DNA from: Mollicutes bacterium
Lineage (GTDB): Bacteria > Bacillota_I > Bacilli_A > Izemoplasmatales > Izemoplasmataceae
Assembly (NCBI GenBank): GCA_003551005.1
Contig: PULR01000024.1
Span: forward strand, 1-62,009
Length of the DNA: 62,009 nucleotides
Direction of reading: 5' to 3'
The translations under genes were made by a program, and so were the position numbers. The notes beneath the pieces were generated by a model, which had not been told where the DNA came from, searched no databases, and saw only the letters and a list, made by a program, of their open reading frames with translations. Below, piece after piece: positions 2,152 to 55,098 of the stretch; the stretch's first letter is position 1, and every line of letters begins with the position of its first letter.

Positions 2152-4541
2152 TCAAGAAAAAAACCATACGGGTCGAAGGCATGACTTGCGCCATGTGCGC
2201 GAAAACCATCGAGAACAGTTTCGAGGATTTCAGCGGCGTCGATGTACGGGTGAACGTCGGCGCGAACCAGGTGGTCGTCCGCTACGACGACGAGTACACA
2301 CGGCTGACCGATATCGCCCAGCGCATCGACGACGCTGGATATAAGGCGGTCCTTGATGCATCCTTTAAAGATGAGAAGGATGTCCGTCAACGCATGAAAC
2401 GAGAAGTCTTCCTCGCTATCGGTCTGTCCCTGCCGTTGTTGTGGGCGATGTTCGGACATCTCGCATGGTTCGATTTCCTCTATGTCCCCTCGCTTTTCAT
2501 GGATGGGCGTTTCCAGCTTGTCCTGGCCGGCGTGGTTCAGTTCTACATCGGCAAACGATTCTACGTCGGGGCCTTCAACTCGCTGAAGCACAAAACACTG
2601 GGAATGGACATTCTCGTGGTGCTCGGCACCACGAGTGCCTATCTTTACAGCGTATATTTGCTGCTCGACCATTTGATAGCCGGCGGGGCTCATCAACCGG
2701 AGTACTTCTTTGAAATCAGCGCATTGATTATCACAATGGTCCTCGTGGGGAACTACTTTGAGCATCTTGCCAAGGAGAGGACCACGGATGCGCTGGTGGA
2801 ACTTGTCAACCTCGGGGCAAAGGAAGCGCGCCGACTTAAAGATGGACAAGAAGAAAAAGTTCCCATCGAAGCTGTCGAGGTCGGCGACCGCCTCGTCGTG
2901 CATGCGCATGAGAAGATTCCGACTGACGGCGTCATTGTCGAAGGGGAGACCTATATCGACGAATCGATGCTGACGGGAGAAAGCGTTCCAGTTGAGAAGG
3001 CTGTTGGCGAAGAGGTCATCGGTGCGACGTTGAATGATCAGGAGCGTATTGTTATTGAAGCGACCAAGGTAGGAAGCGACACGATGCTCTCCAAGATCAT
3101 CGAGACGGTCGAGGAGGCCAGCGCTCACAAGCCACCCATCCAGCGGACCGCGGACCGTGTGTCTGCGTTCTTTGTTCCGTTGGTGGTGCTCATCGCCCTT
3201 GGCAACTTTCTGGTTCACTATTTCCCCTTGGACTATCCGTTTACAGTATCGTTCACGCGTAGCGTCGCCATCCTCGTCATCAGCTGTCCCTGCGCGCTCG
3301 GGCTCGCGACACCGACCTCCATATTAGTCGGAAACGCCAAGGCTGCACGCAACCATGTTCTCTACAAGGGCGGAGAGTTCTTTGAACGTGCCAACGCCAT
3401 CGAGGCCATTGCTTTCGACAAAACCGGGACGCTGACCGAAGGAAAACCGCAGGTCACGGATTATGAAGGCGATTCTGATGTCCTGGATTATCTGTATAGC
3501 ATTGAACAAGAATCCACCCATCCGATTGCCACGGCAGTTGCGGAATATGCCGAAACCCAAGGCGCTTCGCCGCTTCCCGTGAAGGGTCTGGAAACCCATA
3601 AGGGCAAAGGCGTCGAGGCGGAGGTCGACGGTGTCCATGTGGCTGTGGGTAATCAGCGCTTGATGGCGACCATCGACGCAGACCATTCTGAATTTGACAA
3701 CCGGGCGGAGACATGGCTTTCACAGGCTAAAACGGTAAACTACGTCGCCCTGGATGGAAAAGTCCGGGCGGGCTATGCGGTTCGCGACGAAATCAAGCCG
3801 ACATCGCGTTCGGTCATTCAGTCCATGCACGCAAGAGGTTTAAAAGCGATCATGGTGACGGGCGACCATCAACGGGTCGCTGATGCGATTGCTGGAGAAC
3901 TTGGCATTGATGAAGTCTATGCCGAGGTCCTGCCACATGAAAAAGCGGAAATTGTCCAAACCATCCAGCAAGACGGCACCGTCGTCGCCTTTGTCGGGGA
4001 CGGCATCAACGACGCACCCGCTCTCAAGCTTGCGGACATCGGCATCGCGATGGGCTATGGTACCGATGTCGCCATTGAATCCAGCGACGTTACCATCATG
4101 AGTCAGAATCTGGGCCTCGTGCTCAAAGCTATCGCGATGAGCAAGGCTACGCTTAGAAACATCCGCCAGAATTTCTTCTGGGCCTTCTCCTATAATCTGG
4201 TCGCCATCCCGCTGGCCGCGACTGGAAGACTTTCGATGCTGCTTGCCGCTGTCGCCATGGCATTCAGCTCGATTATGGTTGTTCTTAATGCGTTGCGACT
4301 CAAGACGACGAAACTGCCCGAATTCTCCATAGCATCCAAAGAAGGAGGTGACAGGATGGATTTCAAAGTTCCCGATATGAGCTGCGGTCATTGCAAGATG
4401 ACCATTGAGCAGGCCTTGACCGCTGCCGGTTATAAACAGGTACAGATTGACCTTGAGCGTGGAATCGTATCTGTTGAGACTGAAGACGAAGCCGCTGTAC
4501 GTAAGATTATCGAGGATAATGGCTACGCAGTGAGTGATTAG
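2148..4541 (+). CDS. copA: Cu(+)-exporting P1B-type ATPase, with fused C-terminal HMA domain
   Basis: A 797-residue membrane pump that exports Cu+. An N-terminal heavy-metal domain carries GMTCAMC (Cys14, Cys17); eight membrane helices follow, with the ion-binding CPC in SCPCALGLATP near residue 380, the phosphorylation site DKTGT near residue 425 and the GDGIND hinge. The last helices contain SYN and MAFSS, the signature of the Cu+ (P1B-1) class. Unusually, a second HMA domain (DMSCGHC) is fused at the C-terminus, after residue 736. It starts by an ATGA overlap with the ArsR gene. The join to the C-terminal domain encodes a perfect Shine-Dalgarno (see the nested copZ entry), as if an ancestral copA-copZ pair became one frame. 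No other function fits. Confidence 0.95.
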   Translation: MIKKKTIRVEGMTCAMCAKTIENSFEDFSGVDVRVNVGANQVVVRYDDEYTRLTDIAQRIDDAGYKAVLDASFKDEKDVRQRMKREVFLAIGLSLPLLWAMFGHLAWFDFLYVPSLFMDGRFQLVLAGVVQFYIGKRFYVGAFNSLKHKTLGMDILVVLGTTSAYLYSVYLLLDHLIAGGAHQPEYFFEISALIITMVLVGNYFEHLAKERTTDALVELVNLGAKEARRLKDGQEEKVPIEAVEVGDRLVVHAHEKIPTDGVIVEGETYIDESMLTGESVPVEKAVGEEVIGATLNDQERIVIEATKVGSDTMLSKIIETVEEASAHKPPIQRTADRVSAFFVPLVVLIALGNFLVHYFPLDYPFTVSFTRSVAILVISCPCALGLATPTSILVGNAKAARNHVLYKGGEFFERANAIEAIAFDKTGTLTEGKPQVTDYEGDSDVLDYLYSIEQESTHPIATAVAEYAETQGASPLPVKGLETHKGKGVEAEVDGVHVAVGNQRLMATIDADHSEFDNRAETWLSQAKTVNYVALDGKVRAGYAVRDEIKPTSRSVIQSMHARGLKAIMVTGDHQRVADAIAGELGIDEVYAEVLPHEKAEIVQTIQQDGTVVAFVGDGINDAPALKLADIGIAMGYGTDVAIESSDVTIMSQNLGLVLKAIAMSKATLRNIRQNFFWAFSYNLVAIPLAATGRLSMLLAAVAMAFSSIMVVLNALRLKTTKLPEFSIASKEGGDRMDFKVPDMSCGHCKMTIEQALTAAGYKQVQIDLERGIVSVETEDEAAVRKIIEDNGYAVSD
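4356..4541 (+). CDS. nested in-frame CopZ-like copper chaperone (internal start in copA)
   Basis: An in-frame ATG at 4356 is preceded by AAGGAGGTG (4342-4350) with five bases between, better than most ribosome sites in this window. Initiation there would give a free 61-residue heavy-metal-associated domain beginning MDFKVPDMSCGHC, the size of a stand-alone CopZ chaperone, which hands Cu+ to the ATPase. The linker read from the ribosome site in the long protein is Lys-Glu-Gly-Gly-Asp-Arg. That the domain exists is clear; that it is made separately is an inference from the ribosome site. Confidence 0.55.
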   Translation: MDFKVPDMSCGHCKMTIEQALTAAGYKQVQIDLERGIVSVETEDEAAVRKIIEDNGYAVSD

Positions 4542-41494: not shown

Positions 41495-42685
41495 ATGAAA
41501 ACTATCAAAGAGCTTTACAAAATCGGTAAAGGGCCTTCCAGCTCGCATACCATGGGGCCGGAAAAAGCCTGTCGGGATTTTCAGCAAAGGCACCCGGCTG
41601 ACGCCTACCGAGCGGTTCTCCATGGTTCTTTGAGCATGACGGGTCGTGGCCATTTGACCGATCGGATCATAAAAGAGACGCTTGTGAACGTGGAGGTTGT
41701 CTTCAGCGATGCCTTCGCCGAAGAACACCCCAACACACTCGATCTCTTCGCTTTTGACAATGACCGGGAAATCGCTTCAGATCGGTATTTTAGCATTGGT
41801 GGCGGGGATATCCTCCGGGCGGGAGAAGCGTCGGTTGAATCACAGCCGATCTACCCCCACCGGACCTTTGAGGAGATTGTCGAATACTGTCGTGATGAAG
41901 GTCTGGACTATGCCGGCTATATCAGGCGACATGAAGGACCTTCTATCGATGAATTCCTGCAAACGGTTTTCGAGGCGATGGAGACAGCCGTCGATGAAGG
42001 TCTGCACAAGCAGGGCGAGCTTCCCGGAGCCTTGGCTTTGAAACGCAAGGCCAGAAGCCTGCACGAGCGAGCCCGGCGCGAAACGGACCCTTCCGACAAA
42101 AGAATCGCCATTCTCGGGGCTTATGCTTTTGCCGTTGGTGAGGAGAACGCCTCCGGAGGGACGATTGTCACAGCACCGACCTGCGGAGCCAGCGGGGTTC
42201 TCCCGGCAGTTCTCCTCTATGCCCGTCGCCACCAAGGTTACAGCGTCGGAAAACTGGTGGATGCTTTGGCTGTCGCGGGTCTGTTCGGCAATTTCATCAA
42301 GACACATGCTTCAATCAGTGGCGCGGAAGCCGGCTGCCAGGCAGAAGTCGGCAGTGCCTGCGCAATGGCTGCTGCGGCCCATGCGCATCTTCGCGGCCAT
42401 GATCTTTCGGCGATCGAGTATGCGGCGGAAGTCGCGCTCGAGCATCATCTGGGCCTGACGTGCGACCCAGTCATGGGATATGTTCAGATTCCGTGTATCG
42501 AACGCAATGCCGCAGCTGCTTTGCGTGCGGTCGATGCTAGCCGTTTGGCCGCTCATCTGAGCGATTTCCGTAAGATCACCTTCGATTATGTCGTTGAAAC
42601 CATGTATGAGACCGGGCGGGACTTACCGGCCCATTACCGGGAGACCGGCATGGGAGGACTCGCCAAGCGCTACAAGCTCAAATGA
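41495..42685 (+). CDS. sdaA: L-serine ammonia-lyase, iron-sulfur type, single chain
   Basis: This enzyme deaminates L-serine to pyruvate with a [4Fe-4S] cluster. The 396-residue chain has the beta domain first (KIGKGPSSSHTMGP near residue 10, SMTGRGHLTD near residue 47) and the alpha domain next (ENASGGTIVTAPTCGASG near residue 216, GAEAGCQAEVGSACAM near residue 275, LTCDPVMG near residue 325), so all four candidate cluster Cys residues are kept. It is shorter than the E. coli single-chain enzyme (about 454) because of a compact beta domain. It ends with an ATGA overlap with the RlmD-like gene. Confidence 0.95.
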   Translation: MKTIKELYKIGKGPSSSHTMGPEKACRDFQQRHPADAYRAVLHGSLSMTGRGHLTDRIIKETLVNVEVVFSDAFAEEHPNTLDLFAFDNDREIASDRYFSIGGGDILRAGEASVESQPIYPHRTFEEIVEYCRDEGLDYAGYIRRHEGPSIDEFLQTVFEAMETAVDEGLHKQGELPGALALKRKARSLHERARRETDPSDKRIAILGAYAFAVGEENASGGTIVTAPTCGASGVLPAVLLYARRHQGYSVGKLVDALAVAGLFGNFIKTHASISGAEAGCQAEVGSACAMAAAAHAHLRGHDLSAIEYAAEVALEHHLGLTCDPVMGYVQIPCIERNAAAALRAVDASRLAAHLSDFRKITFDYVVETMYETGRDLPAHYRETGMGGLAKRYKLK

Positions 42686-44040
42686 AAGAAGGGGTTGGAT
42701 TGGTCGAGAAAAATTCGTATCACGATGTCACCTTCGTCGACATGACGCATGACGCCATGGGCGTCTGCCGTGTCGAAGGTTTCCCTTTGTTTGTGAAGGG
42801 CGCCTTGAAGGGTGAGAAGGCAACCATCAAGGTCATCAAGGTGAATAAGAACTTCGGTTTCGGCCGGTTGATTGAACTGAAGGAGGCCTCCCCCTTCCGC
42901 AAACAACCGATCTGTGATCATTTTGCTGCTTGCGGTGGCTGCGACACTATGCACATGAGTTATGAGATGCAGCTGCAATTCAAGCGTCATCGTGTCCAGG
43001 AGACGCTGCGCAAGCTTGGCGGCATTGAGGTTGAAGTCGAAGACACCATTCCGATGACCAATCCCTACTATTATCGAAACAAGGCTCTCGTTCCTTTTGG
43101 TGTCCGGGGTGGGCGGACGGTCGCCGGACTTTATCGCCCCCGCTCGCATGACATTGTCGATATCCAGCGATGCCATATCTACCCGAGGGTCTTCACCGAC
43201 ATCATTCGTTTCGTCCGCAATGTTCTTCAGGAGCAGTCCACGCCCATCTATCAGGGCGGCAAGGGTCCCGCCTTTCGTGGTTTAATGTTGCGCAGAAGCG
43301 CACAATATGGCGAAATTTCAATTGTTTTAATCGCCACCCGGGAGATGTTCCCGGGCCGGGATGTTCTCGTCAAGCGACTGCTTGATGCATACCAGAAAAT
43401 CGTCTCCATCGTGGTCAGTGTCAATCCTGACAAGACGAATGTCATGCTGGGTAAAAAAAGCCGGACGCTGCACGGAAAGGATAACATCCGCGACCGTCTC
43501 TTCGGTTTTGAATACAACATCTCGCACCGGTCTTTCTATCAGGTGAATCCTACCCAGACAGAGGCTCTCTACCGCCTCGCGCTCGAGTTCGCATCCCTCC
43601 ATGGTGAAGAATTCGCCGTGGATGTCTACTCAGGCATCGGCACATTGACCCTGCCCATCTCCAGGCGGGTCAGGGAAGCGCACGGTATCGAAAGTGTCCC
43701 GGAAGCGACGCAGGATGCGAGACGCAACGCAGAAGCGAACCAAGTCGAGAACGTCACATTCCACACGGGTCAGGCGAAGGATCTTCTACCGACCTTGGTT
43801 AGGAAGGCTGACGTCGTTTTCCTTGATCCGCCCAGGAAAGGATGTGAGCGTGAAGTTCTCGATGCCATCATCGACAGCAACATATCAAGGGTTGTTTATG
43901 TTTCCTGCAACGTCTCGACCCAAGCGCGGGATGCCGCCCGTCTTGTCGATGCCGATTACCGTGTCCGCAAAGTGAGGCCCGTCGACATGTTTCCGCAGAC
44001 AAGCCACATCGAGACCGTGATGCTTCTGGAAAAAGAATAG
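42682..44040 (+). CDS. 23S rRNA (uracil-5-)-methyltransferase, RlmD/TrmA family
   Basis: A 452-residue RNA methyltransferase that transfers methyl from SAM to uracil C5. An N-terminal TRAM domain (residues 10-70) is followed by the iron-sulfur motif CDHFAACGGC (near residue 75) with a fourth Cys in QRCHIYPR. The SAM domain has VDVYSGIGTLTLP near residue 314, DPPRKGC near residue 382 and the catalytic Cys in VYVSCNVST near residue 407. ATG 42682 overlaps the serine dehydratase stop; TTG 42700 with GAAGGGG upstream is an equal candidate. A second homologue lies at 46788; which one modifies U1939, U747 or tRNA U54 cannot be told. Confidence 0.92.
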   Translation: MKEGVGLVEKNSYHDVTFVDMTHDAMGVCRVEGFPLFVKGALKGEKATIKVIKVNKNFGFGRLIELKEASPFRKQPICDHFAACGGCDTMHMSYEMQLQFKRHRVQETLRKLGGIEVEVEDTIPMTNPYYYRNKALVPFGVRGGRTVAGLYRPRSHDIVDIQRCHIYPRVFTDIIRFVRNVLQEQSTPIYQGGKGPAFRGLMLRRSAQYGEISIVLIATREMFPGRDVLVKRLLDAYQKIVSIVVSVNPDKTNVMLGKKSRTLHGKDNIRDRLFGFEYNISHRSFYQVNPTQTEALYRLALEFASLHGEEFAVDVYSGIGTLTLPISRRVREAHGIESVPEATQDARRNAEANQVENVTFHTGQAKDLLPTLVRKADVVFLDPPRKGCEREVLDAIIDSNISRVVYVSCNVSTQARDAARLVDADYRVRKVRPVDMFPQTSHIETVMLLEKE

Positions 44041-44103: not shown

Positions 44104-44418
44104 TTACTTCTTTTGTTCTTTGCAGCAATCGTCGTCCTTCTCGCAGGGCTCAGGCTCCGTTTCGGAAAGAGCGATAAGATCCTCTCCCATTTTCCGCAAG
44201 GCATCGCGTTTAGCCTTGTAGTGCTGGAAATGTCCACTGCGCTCATTTTCAACTAAACCTTGCTGCTTGAGAATCCTCAGGTGTTGGGAAATAGCGGATT
44301 CCGTCACCTGAAAATGTTCGGCAAGACCTTTGACGCAATAGGATTTCTTCAGCAATAACTGAATGATATTGTATCGAGTCTTTTCTCCAATCGCTGTAAA
44401 GCGTTTGACTTCTTCCAT
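44104..44418 (-). CDS. ArsR-family regulator with Cys-rich tail, divergent from heliorhodopsin
   Basis: A 104-residue winged-helix regulator. It begins MEEVKRFTAIGEKTRYNII, has the recognition helix region VTESAISQHLRILKQQGLV near residue 38, a Cys in the preceding helix (KSYCVKGLA), and an unusual acidic tail CEKDDDCCKEQKK with three Cys that could bind metal or sense redox state. ATG 44418 is nine bases after GGAGG; TTG 44439 is less likely. Its gene faces away from the heliorhodopsin gene with 161 bases between, so it may control itself and the rhodopsin. The ligand is unknown. Confidence 0.88.
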   Translation of the reverse strand: MEEVKRFTAIGEKTRYNIIQLLLKKSYCVKGLAEHFQVTESAISQHLRILKQQGLVENERSGHFQHYKAKRDALRKMGEDLIALSETEPEPCEKDDDCCKEQKK

Positions 44419-44579
44419 ATGATTCAACCTCCAATCCAATATATTAAGTTTAAGCTAAAATAATTATAACGTGTTGGATTAAGCTTGTCAATGACCATGC
44501 TCAGTTGTATTTTTTTAGGATTTACATCAGAAGGCGTGGTATAATGCAATAAATTGATAACAAACAGGGAGGGTTTTAA
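44419..44579. promoter_or_regulatory. divergent promoter region arsR / heliorhodopsin
   Basis: For arsR the promoter is perfect: TTGACA (44491-44486, minus strand), 17-base spacer, TATAAT (44468-44463). For the rhodopsin a TATAAT lies at 44540-44545 without a clear -35. Between arsR's -10 and its start an AT-rich stretch (44440-44462) holds TTAAGTTTAAGCTAAAATAA, an imperfect dyad in the style of ArsR operators, and TCCAAT/ATTGGA-like repeats flank it. Confidence 0.6.
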
Positions 44580-45371
44580 TTGAAAGCATTAACGCATGAA
44601 CGGCTCCGACGTTTCAACAAGATCATGGGCGGGCTGCATCTGGTGCAGGGTCTGCTCATGCTCATTCTGGCGACGACTGTGATTCAGACCATCGGGGAGT
44701 TCACACCGACCATCACGCTGTTCTATCTGGAGTTCGACCAGATGGAGCAGACGCTGGTGCTGGCTAGCGACGAGTTGTTCGAACTGCCTTTTGGTATCTT
44801 TGTGGCGCTGTTTTTGTTGCTATCGGCCGGTGCGCACGCGCTCATTGCTTTTCCGGAGCGGACGAACCGCATCTACCGAGAAGATCTTGAGAACGGCGTC
44901 AACAAGTTCCGCTGGTTCGAGTATGCGCTCAGTTCCTCGATCATGATCGTGCTGATCGCGACGCTGTTCGGCATCTACGATCTGGCTTCCTTGCTGCTGA
45001 TCTTCGTTCTCAATGCCTCGATGAACCTCTTCGGGCTGGTGATGGAACAGCTCAATGCGGGACGCGAAAAGAAAGACGTGCGCTGGGGCCCCTTCATCTA
45101 TGGTTCGATTGCCGGAATCGCACCGTGGGTCGTGATCCTGATGTACATGTTCGGCACCGGCGAGTTTGACATGGTACCCTGGTTCGTGTGGGCCATTGTG
45201 GGGACATATTTCGTGGCTTTCAACACCTTCCCGGTGAACATGGTCCTGCAGTACAAGGGTGTGGGACGCTGGTCCGATTATGTCTATGGAGAACGGGTCT
45301 ATATCATCCTCAGCCTGGTGGCCAAGAGCGTCCTGGCCTGGCTGGTCCTCTTCGGAGCGATGCAGCCTTAA
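44580..45371 (+). CDS. heliorhodopsin
   Basis: A 263-residue seven-helix retinal protein of the heliorhodopsin family, which binds retinal as a light sensor with inverted membrane topology (N-terminus inside). It matches the 48C12 type closely by eye: WFEYALSSSIMIVLIA at residues 112-127 with the counterion Glu114, NASMNLFG at 145-152, and the last-helix segment GERVYIILSLVAKSVLAW with the Schiff-base Lys249 and Ser245. His20 and His86 fit the two conserved His residues. The start is TTG 44580, six bases after AGGGAGGG. The gene stands alone between a divergent ArsR gene and a fluoride riboswitch; no retinal-synthesis gene is in the window. The family call is secure; the signalling role is unknown. 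Confidence 0.95.
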   Translation: MKALTHERLRRFNKIMGGLHLVQGLLMLILATTVIQTIGEFTPTITLFYLEFDQMEQTLVLASDELFELPFGIFVALFLLLSAGAHALIAFPERTNRIYREDLENGVNKFRWFEYALSSSIMIVLIATLFGIYDLASLLLIFVLNASMNLFGLVMEQLNAGREKKDVRWGPFIYGSIAGIAPWVVILMYMFGTGEFDMVPWFVWAIVGTYFVAFNTFPVNMVLQYKGVGRWSDYVYGERVYIILSLVAKSVLAWLVLFGAMQP

Positions 45372-45378
45372 GTTTTTT

Positions 45379-45407
45379 TTGCCACTTAGAATGCTCTGTG
45401 CTATATT
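45379..45407 (+). promoter_or_regulatory. promoter of fluoride-riboswitch unit
   Basis: TTGCCA (45379-45384), 17-base spacer, TATATT (45402-45407) preceded by TGC (extended -10). It lies just after the heliorhodopsin stop; a T8 run there has no stem. Confidence 0.75.
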
Positions 45408-45418
45408 AAAGAGGATTG

Positions 45419-45488
45419 AGTGGCGATGGCGTTCGCCGAAACCGCCGAAAGGCTGATGACGCCTGCGTGTTTTTTGCGCAGGTTTTTT
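45419..45488 (+). ncRNA. fluoride riboswitch (crcB motif) with terminator
   Basis: The transcript from 45421 reads TGGCGATGGCGTTCGCC, then GAAACC, a GCC-GAAA-GGC hairpin and TGATGACGCC, which is the crcB consensus: P1 and the pseudoknot pieces GGCGATGG...ATGACGCC. The 3' side merges into a terminator, CCTGCG/CGCAGG (45462-45481) followed by T6. Fluoride binding should stabilise the aptamer and let transcription go on into the antiporter gene. Confidence 0.88.
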
Positions 45489-45528
45489 GATGCGCTATTC
45501 CCGGTGTAAAACGAAGGAGTGTCTGTGA

Positions 45529-46719
45529 GTGTTGTTCAGTGCGGCCAGCGTCTTGTTCTTTGGTTTTCTAGGGGGTTTCCTCTTTGAGAAGATGAAGCTT
45601 CCCCCGTTAATCGGGATGCTGCTTGCGGGGATCGTCATCGGCCCGTCCGGGTTCGATCTGCTCAGTGACGCCCTGCTCGAGGTGGCGCACGATCTGCGGG
45701 TAGTGGCGCTGATCATCATTCTGCTGCGGGCGGGGCTCGGGTTGGATCGTTCACGACTCGGGGAGACCGGAAAGCGTTCGTTGCCGCTCGCGATCATTCC
45801 GAATCTTCTGGAAGGCTTGTCGCTGGCGGTGCTTGCCATGTGGTTCTTTGAGTTCACGTTCGTCCAGGGGGCGATTCTGGGGTTCATTGTTGCGGCCGTC
45901 TCCCCAGCTGTGGTGGTGCCGGCGATGCTGAATCTGATGGACCGCAAAATCGGTATGAAACGCAAGCTTCCGGTTGTGGTGCTGACAGCGGCTTCGCTGG
46001 ACGATGTTTTCGCCATTGCGTTGTTCTCTTCCTTTCTTGGACTCTATCTGGGCACGCAGAGCAGCTTCGGTCTGCAGCTTTTCAATGTACCGCTGGCGAT
46101 TTTCCTAGGTGTATTGCTAGGCCTGTTGGTCGGGCTTGTGCTGCTCGTGTTCTTTCGGCGCTTTCGTATCCGGGATAGCCGCAAGGTAGTGCTGCTTTTG
46201 GCGGTGTCGATGTTTCTGGTCACCCTGGAAGAGAGACTCGAGGATGTCGTCATGGTCTCCGCCTTTCTCGGGGTGATGGCGATCGGGGTCGTGATCGCGG
46301 AAGGGAAATCCCCCTTGGCGACTCGCTTGTCGATCAAACTCTCGAAGGTCTGGGTTTTTGCGCAGATTCTGTTATTCGTGCTGGTTGGCGCCGCGGTCGA
46401 TGTCTCCATCGCTTTAGAGGCCGGCCTGCTGGGAATCGGGTTCGTCTTCTTTGGGCTTTTCATGCGCAGTATCGGGGTGCTGATCGCCACCTCGCGCAGT
46501 CGGCATCCCTGGCGGGAGCGGCTGTTCATCGTCGCCTCCTATTGGCCGAAGGCCACGGTCCAGGCCGCGGTCGGTGCGGTGCCGCTCGCCATGGGGGTCG
46601 CCGGAGGGGAGCTGATTCTGGCGATTTCGGTGCTGAGCATCCTGCTGAGTGCTCCGCTTGGCGCTTTCGCCATCAAACGCCTCACCCCGTTCTGTCTGGA
46701 CCATCCTAGTGAAGCTTGA
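45529..46719 (+). CDS. cation/proton antiporter under fluoride riboswitch control
   Basis: A 396-residue membrane antiporter of the monovalent cation:proton (CPA) superfamily with about 12 helices. It starts MLFSAASVLFFGFLGG, has LPPLIGMLLAGIVIGP near residue 26, VSPAVVVPAML near residue 125 and the acidic SLDDVFAIALFSS near residue 154, where the ion-binding Asp pair sits. GTG 45529 is nine bases after AAGGAG. Fluoride riboswitches often control CrcB, CLC-F or Na+/H+ antiporter-like genes, so this gene probably answers fluoride stress, either by exporting fluoride or by managing the proton load. Its true ions are not known. Confidence 0.85.
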   Translation: MLFSAASVLFFGFLGGFLFEKMKLPPLIGMLLAGIVIGPSGFDLLSDALLEVAHDLRVVALIIILLRAGLGLDRSRLGETGKRSLPLAIIPNLLEGLSLAVLAMWFFEFTFVQGAILGFIVAAVSPAVVVPAMLNLMDRKIGMKRKLPVVVLTAASLDDVFAIALFSSFLGLYLGTQSSFGLQLFNVPLAIFLGVLLGLLVGLVLLVFFRRFRIRDSRKVVLLLAVSMFLVTLEERLEDVVMVSAFLGVMAIGVVIAEGKSPLATRLSIKLSKVWVFAQILLFVLVGAAVDVSIALEAGLLGIGFVFFGLFMRSIGVLIATSRSRHPWRERLFIVASYWPKATVQAAVGAVPLAMGVAGGELILAISVLSILLSAPLGAFAIKRLTPFCLDHPSEA

Positions 46720-46787
46720 GTCGTACCGTTTCTGTGCATGTGTTACACTATTTTTAAAGACATCCATTGAAAAAAGGAGGGCGGCCC

Positions 46788-48155
46788 ATGGAATCTCAAC
46801 TGGAAATCGGCCAGGAAGTTCTCGTGACCATTAAGTCGATCGGCATTAACGGCGAAGGCGTGGGCTTCTACAAGCGACAGGTTGTCTTCGTGACCGATGC
46901 CATTCCGCCCGAGCAGGTCGTCGTCCGTGTCGTAGACCTCAAGAAAGGCTACGCCGTGGGAGAGCCGGTTCGCTTCAAGAAACACGCCTATTACCGGCGA
47001 CGTCCTTTCTGCAGGCATTACGGAACGTGCGGCGGTTGTCAGCTTCAGCACGCCGATTATGAGGAACAGCTCCGGCTGAAGCAGGAACTTCTCAAACAGA
47101 CCATCGAACGCTATGCAGACCTGCAGCCTGGGGATTACCGGTTGCACCGCTACGAACCGCCCCTGAATCCACGGGCTTATCGACACAAGGCCCAGATGCC
47201 GGTGGAAAACACTTCGGATGGTCTGCAGACCGGATTGTACGCTCGCGGCGGCAAGGAATTCGTCCCGGTCGCTGCCTGTCCCGTGCAGCATCCTCGCATC
47301 AACGAGACGAACCAGGCGGTACTCGAGATTCTCGACCGCTATCGGGTCTACGCTTTCGATCCTTCCCGTATGCGGGGGATGCTCCGCTATATCGTGACCC
47401 GTATCGGTTCTTCACGCGACGAGATTCAGGTGACCCTGGTCGTCACCCTCTTCAACAAGTTTCTCCACAAGGTCGCAAGAGAGATTCTCGAACTGCCCAA
47501 CGTCGTGGGGGTCGCCGTTTCCAAGAATCATGATGCGGCGAATCCGAACGTCTTCGGCGAGACCTATGAAGTGCTGGCCGGCAGGGAGGTCATCGACGAG
47601 CGTCTCGGCGGTGTCCGGTATGCGTTGAACCCGAAGGCGTTCTTTCAGCTGAACCCCCCTGAAGCCAAAAGGATGTACGATTATGTCGGCTCGTTGCTGC
47701 CGCGGGGTGAGAGCCTGCTGGATCTGCACACCGGAAGCGGAGGAATGGCGCTTTATTTCGCGGATCGGTTCAAGCAGGTCGTCGGCATCGACAGCGACCC
47801 CTCCTCGATCAGCAGCGCGGAGGCGAATGCCAGGGCCAACGGTATGGAAGGGGCGACCTTCCGGGTCTTCGATGCCGGGAGGTATCTTAAACGCACACCG
47901 GGTGCATCGTTTGATGTCGTGGTGATGGATCCGCCACGTTCCGGTCTCGACCGCGAGACCATCTCCGGACTGCTTGCCTCCCCGCCGCAGACACTCATCT
48001 ATGTCTCCTGCAACCCGAGCACCCTGGCGAAGGATCTCGGACGCTTGAAAAAACAGTTTTGCATCGAGTCCATCAAGCCCTTCGATATGTTCCCCCAGAC
48101 GTCCCAGGTTGAATCCGTGACGCATTTGAGTAGGCGCAAGGAGACTCCGTCATGA
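46788..48155 (+). CDS. 23S rRNA (uracil-5-)-methyltransferase, RlmD/TrmA family
   Basis: A 455-residue second member of the family at 42682. It has the TRAM domain (residues 1-62), the cluster motif CRHYGTCGGC near residue 78, ACPVQHPRINE with the fourth Cys, LLDLHTGSGGMAL near residue 310, MDPPRSGLD near residue 384 and the catalytic Cys in IYVSCNPST near residue 406. ATG 46788 has AAAGGAGGG eight bases upstream; the frame from 46767 covers that site. It overlaps the next gene by ATGA. Two homologues six kilobases apart suggest division of rRNA targets, as for RlmCD-like enzymes in Bacillota. Confidence 0.92.
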   Translation: MESQLEIGQEVLVTIKSIGINGEGVGFYKRQVVFVTDAIPPEQVVVRVVDLKKGYAVGEPVRFKKHAYYRRRPFCRHYGTCGGCQLQHADYEEQLRLKQELLKQTIERYADLQPGDYRLHRYEPPLNPRAYRHKAQMPVENTSDGLQTGLYARGGKEFVPVAACPVQHPRINETNQAVLEILDRYRVYAFDPSRMRGMLRYIVTRIGSSRDEIQVTLVVTLFNKFLHKVAREILELPNVVGVAVSKNHDAANPNVFGETYEVLAGREVIDERLGGVRYALNPKAFFQLNPPEAKRMYDYVGSLLPRGESLLDLHTGSGGMALYFADRFKQVVGIDSDPSSISSAEANARANGMEGATFRVFDAGRYLKRTPGASFDVVVMDPPRSGLDRETISGLLASPPQTLIYVSCNPSTLAKDLGRLKKQFCIESIKPFDMFPQTSQVESVTHLSRRKETPS

Positions 48156-53354: not shown

Positions 53355-53567
53355 AGAGTGCTTACGTTAGGTGAGGCTCCTATACAGATAGACGCTGCTG
53401 CCCGGAAATGTCGAAAGATGCCAACGGGTCAACAGACACTGCCGACTTAAGGCTTGTCTAATGCAGCTGGCGGAAGCCAACGCTGTATAGTGCCAAAACT
53501 CAACGAAGGTAAGATGGTTATCTGAGGTTTTGGATAATCTGAGCCTGCCGTTGAGGCAGGCTTTTTT
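53355..53567 (+). ncRNA. M-box magnesium riboswitch (ykoK leader)
   Basis: The aptamer carries the conserved ykoK blocks GTTAGGTGAGGCTCCTATA (53366-53384), ACGCTGCTGCCC, GCCAACGGGTCAACAG, TAATGCAGCTGG and TGTATAGTGCCAAAACTC, in the right order and spacing; CTTAC/GTAAG close the P1 helix (53361-53365 with 53509-53513). The expression platform ends in a terminator, GCCTGCC/GGCAGGC (53543-53561) with T6. High Mg2+ should favour the terminator and shut off mgtE. Confidence 0.95.
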
Positions 53568-53700: not shown

Positions 53701-55098
53701 ATGCTTAAAGAGAACATGAGAATCGTGAACGAAATCCGTGAAATGATCAACGAAAGCGAGACCAGAAAGCTCAAGGAAGTCATCAATGAAATCGAGGACT
53801 ACAATCTAGCGGACTTGATTGAAATCCTGGAGCCAAAGTACCAAGTGGTCGTGTTCCGCCTGCTGGAAAAAGACAAGGCCATCGAGGTCTTCGAGCACAT
53901 TGAACCGGAAGTCCAGCAGGATCTTTTGCAAAACTTCACCGACGAGAAAGCCGTGGAGTTTTTCAAGGGATTGGAACCGGACGACCGCGCCAAATTGATG
54001 GACGAGCTCCCCGCCAAGGTGGCCAAGCGCCTGCTCGCCTCCCTCTCGAATGAGGAGCGGGAATACACGAACCTTGTCATGGGTTATGACACCGGGACCG
54101 CCGGCAACATCATGACTCCCAAGTACATCCGGTTCAAGGAGAACCTGACCGTCGAAGAAGGGTTGAAGAGGCTCCGCGAGGTCGGCTCCGGCTATGAAAA
54201 CCTCTATCAGATCTATGTGACCGATAACAGCCGTCGCTTGATCGGGACTATCGAGCTGACGTCGCTGGTGACAGCCGATCCCAAGCAGAAAGTCTCCGAG
54301 GTCATGGTCACGGACCCCATCAGCGTCACCTACGACGTCCACGACGAAGTCGTCTCGAAGATGCTGCAGGAATCCGACCTGCTCTCCATCCCCGTCATCG
54401 ACAAGGAGAACCGTCTGCTGGGCGCCGTCACGGTTGACGACGCCATTGACGTGCTGGAAGAAGAAGCTCGCGAACAAGCGCTCAGCAACGCCGGTTTCGC
54501 GGACGTGGGCAAGCTGGAGATCGACCGCAGCCGCGTGCTGACCACCGGAAGCCTGCCCTGGGTCTGGCGCATCCGCATGCCCTATCTCATGCTGGCCATG
54601 GCCGGCGGATTGATGGCCGGGTTCTTCATCGAACGCTTCGAGGATACCCTGGCGCAATTCTATGCGCTGGCCTTCTTCATTCCCGTGATCATGGACATGG
54701 GCGGAAATGTCGGCACCCAGTCGTCGACCATTTTCACCCGGGCTGTCGTGCTTGGACAGATTGATTTCAAGCGTTTCCTCAAGCAATGGGGAAGGGAAAT
54801 CGCCATCGGGTTCACGATGGGCGTCATGACCGGCATCCTCGCCGGTGCGATTGTCTATCTCTGGCAGGGTTTCTTCGCAGGTTTCGAATATCCCATACAG
54901 CTGGCGCTCGTCATCGCGGGGGCCCTGGTCGTGACCATCACGGTCGCGAGCGCTGTGGGATTCATCGTCCCCTTTCTTCTCGTGAAACTCGGATTCGACC
55001 AGGCCGCCGGTTCCGTCCCCTTCATCACGACCATCAAGGACATCACCGGCATCCTGATCTATTTCTTGCTCGCGAACATGATTCTGCCCGTGATATGA
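53701..55098 (+). CDS. mgtE: magnesium transporter MgtE
   Basis: A 465-residue Mg2+ channel/transporter. The N domain (helical superhelix, residues 20-130, with LEPDDRAKLMDELP near residue 89), two CBS domains (IMTPKYIRFKENLTVEEGL near residue 139; VMVTDPISV near residue 202), the plug helix, and five membrane helices from about residue 285 can be seen; MDMGGNVGTQSSTIFTRA near residue 336 holds the pore motif. AAAGGAGG precedes the ATG. Expression is placed under Mg2+ control by the M-box upstream. The small membrane protein downstream is probably cotranslated. Confidence 0.97.
   Translation: MLKENMRIVNEIREMINESETRKLKEVINEIEDYNLADLIEILEPKYQVVVFRLLEKDKAIEVFEHIEPEVQQDLLQNFTDEKAVEFFKGLEPDDRAKLMDELPAKVAKRLLASLSNEEREYTNLVMGYDTGTAGNIMTPKYIRFKENLTVEEGLKRLREVGSGYENLYQIYVTDNSRRLIGTIELTSLVTADPKQKVSEVMVTDPISVTYDVHDEVVSKMLQESDLLSIPVIDKENRLLGAVTVDDAIDVLEEEAREQALSNAGFADVGKLEIDRSRVLTTGSLPWVWRIRMPYLMLAMAGGLMAGFFIERFEDTLAQFYALAFFIPVIMDMGGNVGTQSSTIFTRAVVLGQIDFKRFLKQWGREIAIGFTMGVMTGILAGAIVYLWQGFFAGFEYPIQLALVIAGALVVTITVASAVGFIVPFLLVKLGFDQAAGSVPFITTIKDITGILIYFLLANMILPVI

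Follow-up and report, generated by a model that had tools for sequence, protein, structure and literature searches.

A fluoride riboswitch ahead of an NHA2-like antiporter gene in Izemoplasmataceae

Riboswitch-linked Na+/H+ antiporters were reportedly described by Baker et al. in 2012. Fluoride-riboswitch antiporters are already in print, and in PMC11139923 Na+/H+ antiporters form the next-most common riboswitch class after the exporters and are read as serving pH homeostasis. Section 11 of the same source lists exporter-poor groups and assigns them no other exporter. In the fluoride riboswitch operon of C. difficile, a CLC-type protein and an NhaP-type antiporter occur together (PMC11477304). 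The window analysed here, a stretch of 62,009 nucleotides from a member of the Izemoplasmataceae, resembles the published cases (Baker et al. 2012; PMC11139923) in that an antiporter gene stands behind a fluoride riboswitch (Table 1). Unlike the published antiporters, which are presented as pH helpers beside exporters, this one is the sole fluoride-riboswitch gene in a family without Fluc or CLC matches and is assigned to an NHA2/SLC9B-like branch. CLC-F and Fluc/CrcB are also found under fluoride riboswitches, but they belong to Pfam families unrelated to that of the antiporter, and none was found in 49 Izemoplasmataceae genomes. Neither an NHA2 (or CPA2) protein with a fluoride riboswitch nor such a Fluc-free family setting was met in the literature searched, subscription papers, including the supplement of Baker et al. 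2012, lying outside it.

Table 1. Features of the riboswitch-antiporter locus and the adjoining heliorhodopsin gene (window coordinates).
Feature	Position	Strand	Basis
Heliorhodopsin gene; neighbour, not thought part of the system	44580..45371	+	PF18761 E 1.4e-95
Sigma-70-like promoter TTGCCA-17-TATATT	45379..45407	+	10/12 matches; consensus match only
Fluoride riboswitch aptamer RF01734	45413..45472	+	59.1 bits vs gathering 34
Stem 1	45422-45425 with 45434-45437	+	Read from sequence
5' pseudoknot strand GGCGT, loop 1	45428..45432	+	5/5 pairs with 45459-45463; covariation over 30 aptamers
Stem 2, GCC(GAAA)GGC	45444-45446 with 45451-45453	+	Read from sequence
3' pseudoknot strand ACGCC	45459..45463	+	3/5 bases also paired in terminator hairpin
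Intrinsic terminator hairpin and T6 tract	45461..45488	+	Shares bases with pseudoknot
RBS-like AAGGAG, 9 nt 5' of GTG start	45514..45519	+	Read from sequence
NHA2/SLC9B-like cation/proton antiporter, 396 aa, DD motif D158-D159	45529..46719	+	PF00999 E 3.7e-46

Switch architecture

The initial annotation had recognised a crcB-motif core at 45421 that merges with a T6 terminator, and had proposed a covariance search with the fluoride riboswitch model. That search returned a match over the full length of RF01734 (model positions 1-64 of 64, E 7.2e-14) with a score above the gathering score, and the core, GGCGATGGCGTTCGCC, begins at 45422, one base from the annotated position. No other RF01734 match occurs in the 1.35 Mb host genome (97% complete, 65 contigs). 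As in its class, the window copy combines a full-length match with the two stems, a pseudoknot and a terminator that overlaps the aptamer. It departs from the class in the gene controlled, that of an NHA2-like antiporter, and in its host genome, where neither Fluc nor CLC is matched. The merger with the terminator was also borne out, as the terminator scan found a stem of 9 pairs (45461-45483) that starts inside the 3' pseudoknot strand and is followed by Ts. Folded alone, this terminator reaches -13.4 kcal/mol (z -3.6).

The same arrangement recurs across the family. At least 4 of the 5 pseudoknot pairs are possible in all 30 Izemoplasmataceae aptamers, and at 26 of the 30 loci the terminator hairpin takes up two or more of the five pseudoknot bases. 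The automatic structure of our detection model, R1, draws the pseudoknot as a nested stem, and R1 was used for detection only. With the structure written out for the 30 aptamers (alignment A2), 93.9% of the cells are paired, compared with 40.6 to 59.2% when it is slid by 1-3 columns, and compensatory change is seen in 48 cells against a shuffled mean of 19.1, the shuffles ignoring relatedness. The pseudoknot helix is 96.7% paired and contains two covarying pairs, and its middle pair occurs as AU, CG, UA, GU and UG. In the AT-rich members of the family the junction insert is enlarged, and the aptamers measure 74-81 nt.

Between the heliorhodopsin gene and the aptamer there is a promoter-like site that ends 14 nt short of the aptamer core. 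When the sequence preceding the aptamer was shuffled 100 times, no shuffle scored as high as this site, and the best-scoring -10 element is exactly TATAAT at 18 of 30 Izemoplasmataceae loci. Given the position of this site, the riboswitch RNA probably starts near 45414. The T8 run 3' of the heliorhodopsin stop (45373-45380) contributes its end to the promoter-like site. Its description in the initial annotation as a run without a stem is fair, the stem that can be drawn 5 nt 5' of it having no greater stability than shuffled sequences (z -0.19). Read-through from the heliorhodopsin gene, suggested in the same place, is possible but not needed, because the promoter-like site sits in the gap. 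Together with the intact pseudoknot and the terminator that shares its bases, this site leads us to expect a transcription switch turned ON by fluoride. The architecture is that of a transcriptional ON switch, the direction being taken from the riboswitch class; PMC2864571 makes the same statement about overlapping terminators. The aptamer copy of the window presumably binds fluoride.

An NHA2-like antiporter

The gene downstream of the switch encodes a protein with a PF00999 domain (158.1 bits; gathering 26.2), its sole Pfam match at E <= 0.001; neither PF02537 nor PF00654 is matched in it. Among proteins of solved structure, human and bison NHA2 come closest to it (phmmer E 1.4e-36, profile E 2.4e-63), with the next solved family, MjNhaP1/PaNhaP, far behind at E about 4e-14. 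An AlphaFold2 model (mean pLDDT 86) has NHA2 as its top Foldseek match (TM 0.82), whereas VIA-align places MjNhaP1 (Z 45.7) before NHA2 (Z 41.0); thus the fold alone does not choose between the two. In the alignment, E95, D158, D159, R313 and T343 correspond to E214, D277, D278, R431 and T461 of bison NHA2, which PMC8850199 ties to the ion site of an electroneutral exchanger. The likeness to NHA2/SLC9B2 (7b4l, 7p1i) thus comprises about 30% identity, a Foldseek TM of 0.8 and the five conserved ion-site residues; unlike NHA2, the window antiporter is bacterial and fluoride-controlled. NHA2 in the strict sense has 14 helices, including an extra N-terminal TM -1. The alignment with the window antiporter starts only at NHA2 residue about 115, and the N-terminal extension is missing, so the protein is best described as an NHA2-like bacterial relative and not as NHA2 itself.

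The ion site does not distinguish antiporters with a riboswitch from those without. All 74 riboswitch-linked and all 27 unlinked relatives have E95, D158, R313 and T343 unchanged; D159 is found in every linked protein and in 24 of the 27 unlinked ones. When residues that might mark the fluoride-linked forms were sought between these 74 and 27 proteins, V284 alone differed, and so no specialised site was found in the linked antiporters. Since linked and unlinked relatives share the site, the chemistry looks like cation/proton exchange with or without a riboswitch. For the window protein it looks like that of NHA2, exchange of Na+ or Li+ for H+, as judged from the sequence.

Distribution and relation to known exporters

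A fluoride riboswitch was found in 32 of 49 Izemoplasmataceae genomes, one in each. All 32 directly precede the antiporter, and no other gene was found behind one, so the initial placement of a fluoride riboswitch ahead of an antiporter extends to the riboswitch-bearing genomes of the family, in which the order aptamer, terminator, antiporter is kept. The antiporter lies next to the riboswitch at all 30 loci that were retrieved, three of which are cut by contig ends, and in G044 and G048 the coordinates place it 39-42 nt downstream of the riboswitch. Alignment A1 comprises 26 of the 30 loci and leaves out L006, with an uncertain start codon, and the fragments L019, L027 and L028. The antiporter itself was detected at E <= 1e-40 in 39 of the 49 genomes. 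Eight of these 39 yielded no riboswitch match, and three of the eight, rechecked with permissive settings, still gave none. Fluc/CrcB (PF02537) and CLC (PF00654) were matched in none of the 49 genomes, 20 of which are at least 90% complete; in 14 control genomes the same searches gave matches in 10 and 12, respectively. The antiporter seems to be the chief or sole transporter that the Izemoplasmataceae dedicate to the fluoride response.

Beyond the Izemoplasmataceae, named genomes were scanned and the best 80 relatives among the matches listed were kept; 51 of these 80 loci have a same-strand riboswitch no more than 400 nt upstream. After removal of three family genomes, 48 of 77 relatives have a riboswitch, 27 have none detected and two count as unknown (L087 and L088, with less than 250 nt upstream). 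Rfam was applied to 53 of the 80 loci, the calls at the other 27 being those of R1; it confirmed the riboswitch at 17 of 17 loci in L033-L049 and at 10 of 36 in a mixed set weighted to loci where R1 had found nothing or little. By record title or label, the linked relatives belong to Bacillota, Fusobacteriota, Elusimicrobiota, Nitrospirota, Thermodesulfobacteriota and Myxococcota, and several are metagenome bins. In a tree of 103 proteins, built without L031, L032 and L034 (family genomes already included), riboswitch linkage needs 12 changes compared with 25.4 in shuffles, and the Izemoplasmataceae fall in two separate places, both riboswitch-linked. This coherent antiporter branch, retained behind fluoride riboswitches across six phyla by record title and seldom found with Fluc, bears on how bacteria survive fluoride without Fluc or CLC-F. 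As bacterial relatives of human NHA2 are often under fluoride control, the linked copies could serve as models for both. Three variants were observed on the side. One Nitrospirae bin carries two equal-scoring fluoride riboswitches on one strand (L055:2223-2290 and 3851-3918), the second of which precedes the antiporter. At L082, two riboswitches lie back to back on opposite strands (3454-3524, minus; 3715-3786, plus), one preceding the antiporter and one facing away. Desulfobacterota-type antiporters (L054, L059, L065, L066, L069, L071, L073, L084, L099) have about 100 extra C-terminal residues (about 494 aa).

Among the 40 named antiporter-bearing genomes of the best 80 loci, Fluc occurs in 3 and some CLC protein in 22. 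Acetivibrio mesophilus, for example, has a riboswitch-linked copy and matches neither PF02537 nor PF00654. An even sample of 393 Clostridia genomes allowed a direct comparison. The antiporter is present in 66 of them and Fluc, above cut-off, in 84; both occur in 2 genomes where 14.1 would be expected (Fisher one-sided p 6.4e-6, uncorrected for phylogeny), which corresponds to Fluc in 2 of 66 antiporter-bearing and 82 of 327 other genomes. A riboswitch lies within 500 nt of 53 of the 70 Clostridia antiporter genes, with none in that range for the remaining 17, and within 1000 nt of 32 of 105 Fluc matches (one of them under cut-off). Conversely, of 120 Clostridia riboswitch matches, some under cut-off, 53 precede this antiporter and 22 precede Fluc. 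Among the 45 others, 20 places were read; nine precede CLC-F-type proteins and one lies ahead of a broken antiporter copy. A strong fluoride riboswitch (58 bits) before an apparently broken antiporter gene was noted at L168/L250 (G362:C167).

The expectation that the antiporter would avoid CLC-F as well as Fluc was rejected. CLC-F-like proteins, defined by 250 bits or more and found in 95 Clostridia genomes, occur in 18 of 66 antiporter-bearing and 77 of 327 other genomes. By strict motifs, CLC-F is present in at least 1 of 66 and at least 11 of 327, counts that are lower bounds because motifs were read in 50 loci, fewer than the 95 genomes at or above 250 bits. The three CLC-F signatures were found at none of the 22 readable CLC loci among 25 from antiporter-bearing genomes. 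The CLC proteins of L196-L200 and L206-L225 stand near CLC-F and mostly have GREGA with GEVIP or GEIVP instead of GREGT/V with GEVTP; such GREGA-type proteins are common in Clostridia and may or may not carry fluoride.

Role of the antiporter and of its neighbours

The initial annotation had proposed that the antiporter forms part of fluoride resistance, a view supported by the riboswitch pairing in 48 of 77 outside relatives and by the unmatched Fluc and CLC families in 49 of 49 family genomes. We think it probable, on balance, that a fluoride ON-switch here drives an NHA2-type antiporter which, as a cation/proton exchanger, manages proton load and the pH gradient. Without fluoride, the RNA would form the terminator and transcription would stop. 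With Mg2+-fluoride bound, the pseudoknot that loop 1 forms with the 3' strand would be locked, withholding that strand from the terminator and allowing the antiporter gene to be transcribed. For the ions carried, the direction of exchange and the benefit to the cell we infer the following: the antiporter would most likely swap Na+ (or Li+ or K+) for H+ by NHA2 chemistry, and the exchange would manage the proton load and pH gradient that govern entry and retention of HF/F-. Against this reading, proton export would favour accumulation of F-, while proton import would acidify the cell, and the riboswitch is unmatched in part of the family genomes, Clostridia genes and outside relatives that have the antiporter (8/39, 17/70 and 27/77, respectively). 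In the cells of this family, either cation/proton exchange suffices, for example through its effect on the pH gradient behind HF accumulation, or fluoride itself is carried by the protein.

The second of these options, in which the antiporter itself exports fluoride, coupled to H+ or to a cation, and forms a further bacterial exporter family beside Fluc and CLC-F, would account for a family in which PF02537 and PF00654 are matched nowhere, yet 32 of 49 genomes have the riboswitch before the antiporter. The rarity of Fluc in named antiporter-bearing genomes and in Clostridia (p 6e-6, uncorrected for phylogeny) points the same way, as do the linkage across six phyla by record title and the overlap of the groups having relatives with the exporter-poor Tenericutes, Spirochetes and Fusobacteria listed in PMC11139923. 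However, the cation-site residues of NHA2 are retained and shared by unlinked relatives, CLC-F-like proteins are not avoided, and the C. difficile operon (PMC11477304) pairs its NhaP-type antiporter with a CLC-type protein; fluoride export by the antiporter is unlikely. The wider proposal that NHA2-like riboswitch-controlled antiporters replace Fluc, themselves remove fluoride and explain part of the bacteria without Fluc or CLC-F, including the whole Izemoplasmataceae, is rather doubtful. Pure pH buffering would lead one to expect co-occurrence with fluoride exporters, and the presence of Fluc in just 2 of 66 Clostridia genomes hints at replacement. Still, pH homeostasis or cation exchange remains the most likely chemistry of the window antiporter. 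The protein might also be a general pH/Na+ antiporter for which the fluoride-responsive leader is one stress input, with little role in fluoride tolerance. This is quite improbable. In its favour, the ion site is the same in linked and unlinked forms, and no riboswitch was detected in 27 of 77 outside relatives, but the riboswitch is kept in most members, as in the Clostridia genes, and throughout the Izemoplasmataceae the antiporter is the only gene found behind it.

A very improbable alternative joins heliorhodopsin and antiporter in one light- and fluoride-linked operon. The upstream ORF is a true heliorhodopsin (NF038020 300 bits, cut-off 100; PF18761 as in Table 1), so the adjacency reported in the initial annotation is real, and at 13 of 30 family loci a heliorhodopsin lies upstream of the antiporter on the same strand, with 17-46 nt from its aligned end to the aptamer. 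However, none of the 77 outside loci, among the best relatives kept, has one there, the promoter-like site separates the two genes, and the terminator of the aptamer would also block read-through in the absence of fluoride. The pair is moreover part of a larger kept block: the order SdaA-RlmD1-(HeR)-antiporter-RlmD2 recurs in part among 16 longer loci of the family, and G034 and G035 keep RlmD1-antiporter-RlmD2 with no heliorhodopsin in that place. A functional unit of the two genes was rejected as the main reading for these reasons, and heliorhodopsin is a syntenic, dispensable neighbour of the antiporter. For PMC8612252, the principal paper on the genes that surround heliorhodopsins, a word count gave no occurrence of "antiporter".

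The remaining neighbours were inspected as well. Paralogous RlmD-type 23S rRNA uracil methyltransferases (42682-44040 and 46767-48155) lie on either side of the heliorhodopsin-antiporter pair, a flanking arrangement that several genera retain. Adjoining heliorhodopsin is an ArsR-type metalloregulator (44104-44439, minus strand) with a 12/12 sigma-70 promoter match at 44491-44463; it was dismissed as part of the system, since it faces away, has this promoter of its own and showed no link. Further downstream, 6.6 kb from the antiporter, an M-box Mg2+ riboswitch (53356-53518, 147 bits) precedes an MgtE gene (53701-55098). L049, L052 and L075 likewise have an M-box 2-4 kb beyond the antiporter. 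Because fluoride riboswitches bind a Mg-F complex, the proximity may have a meaning or may be coincidental.
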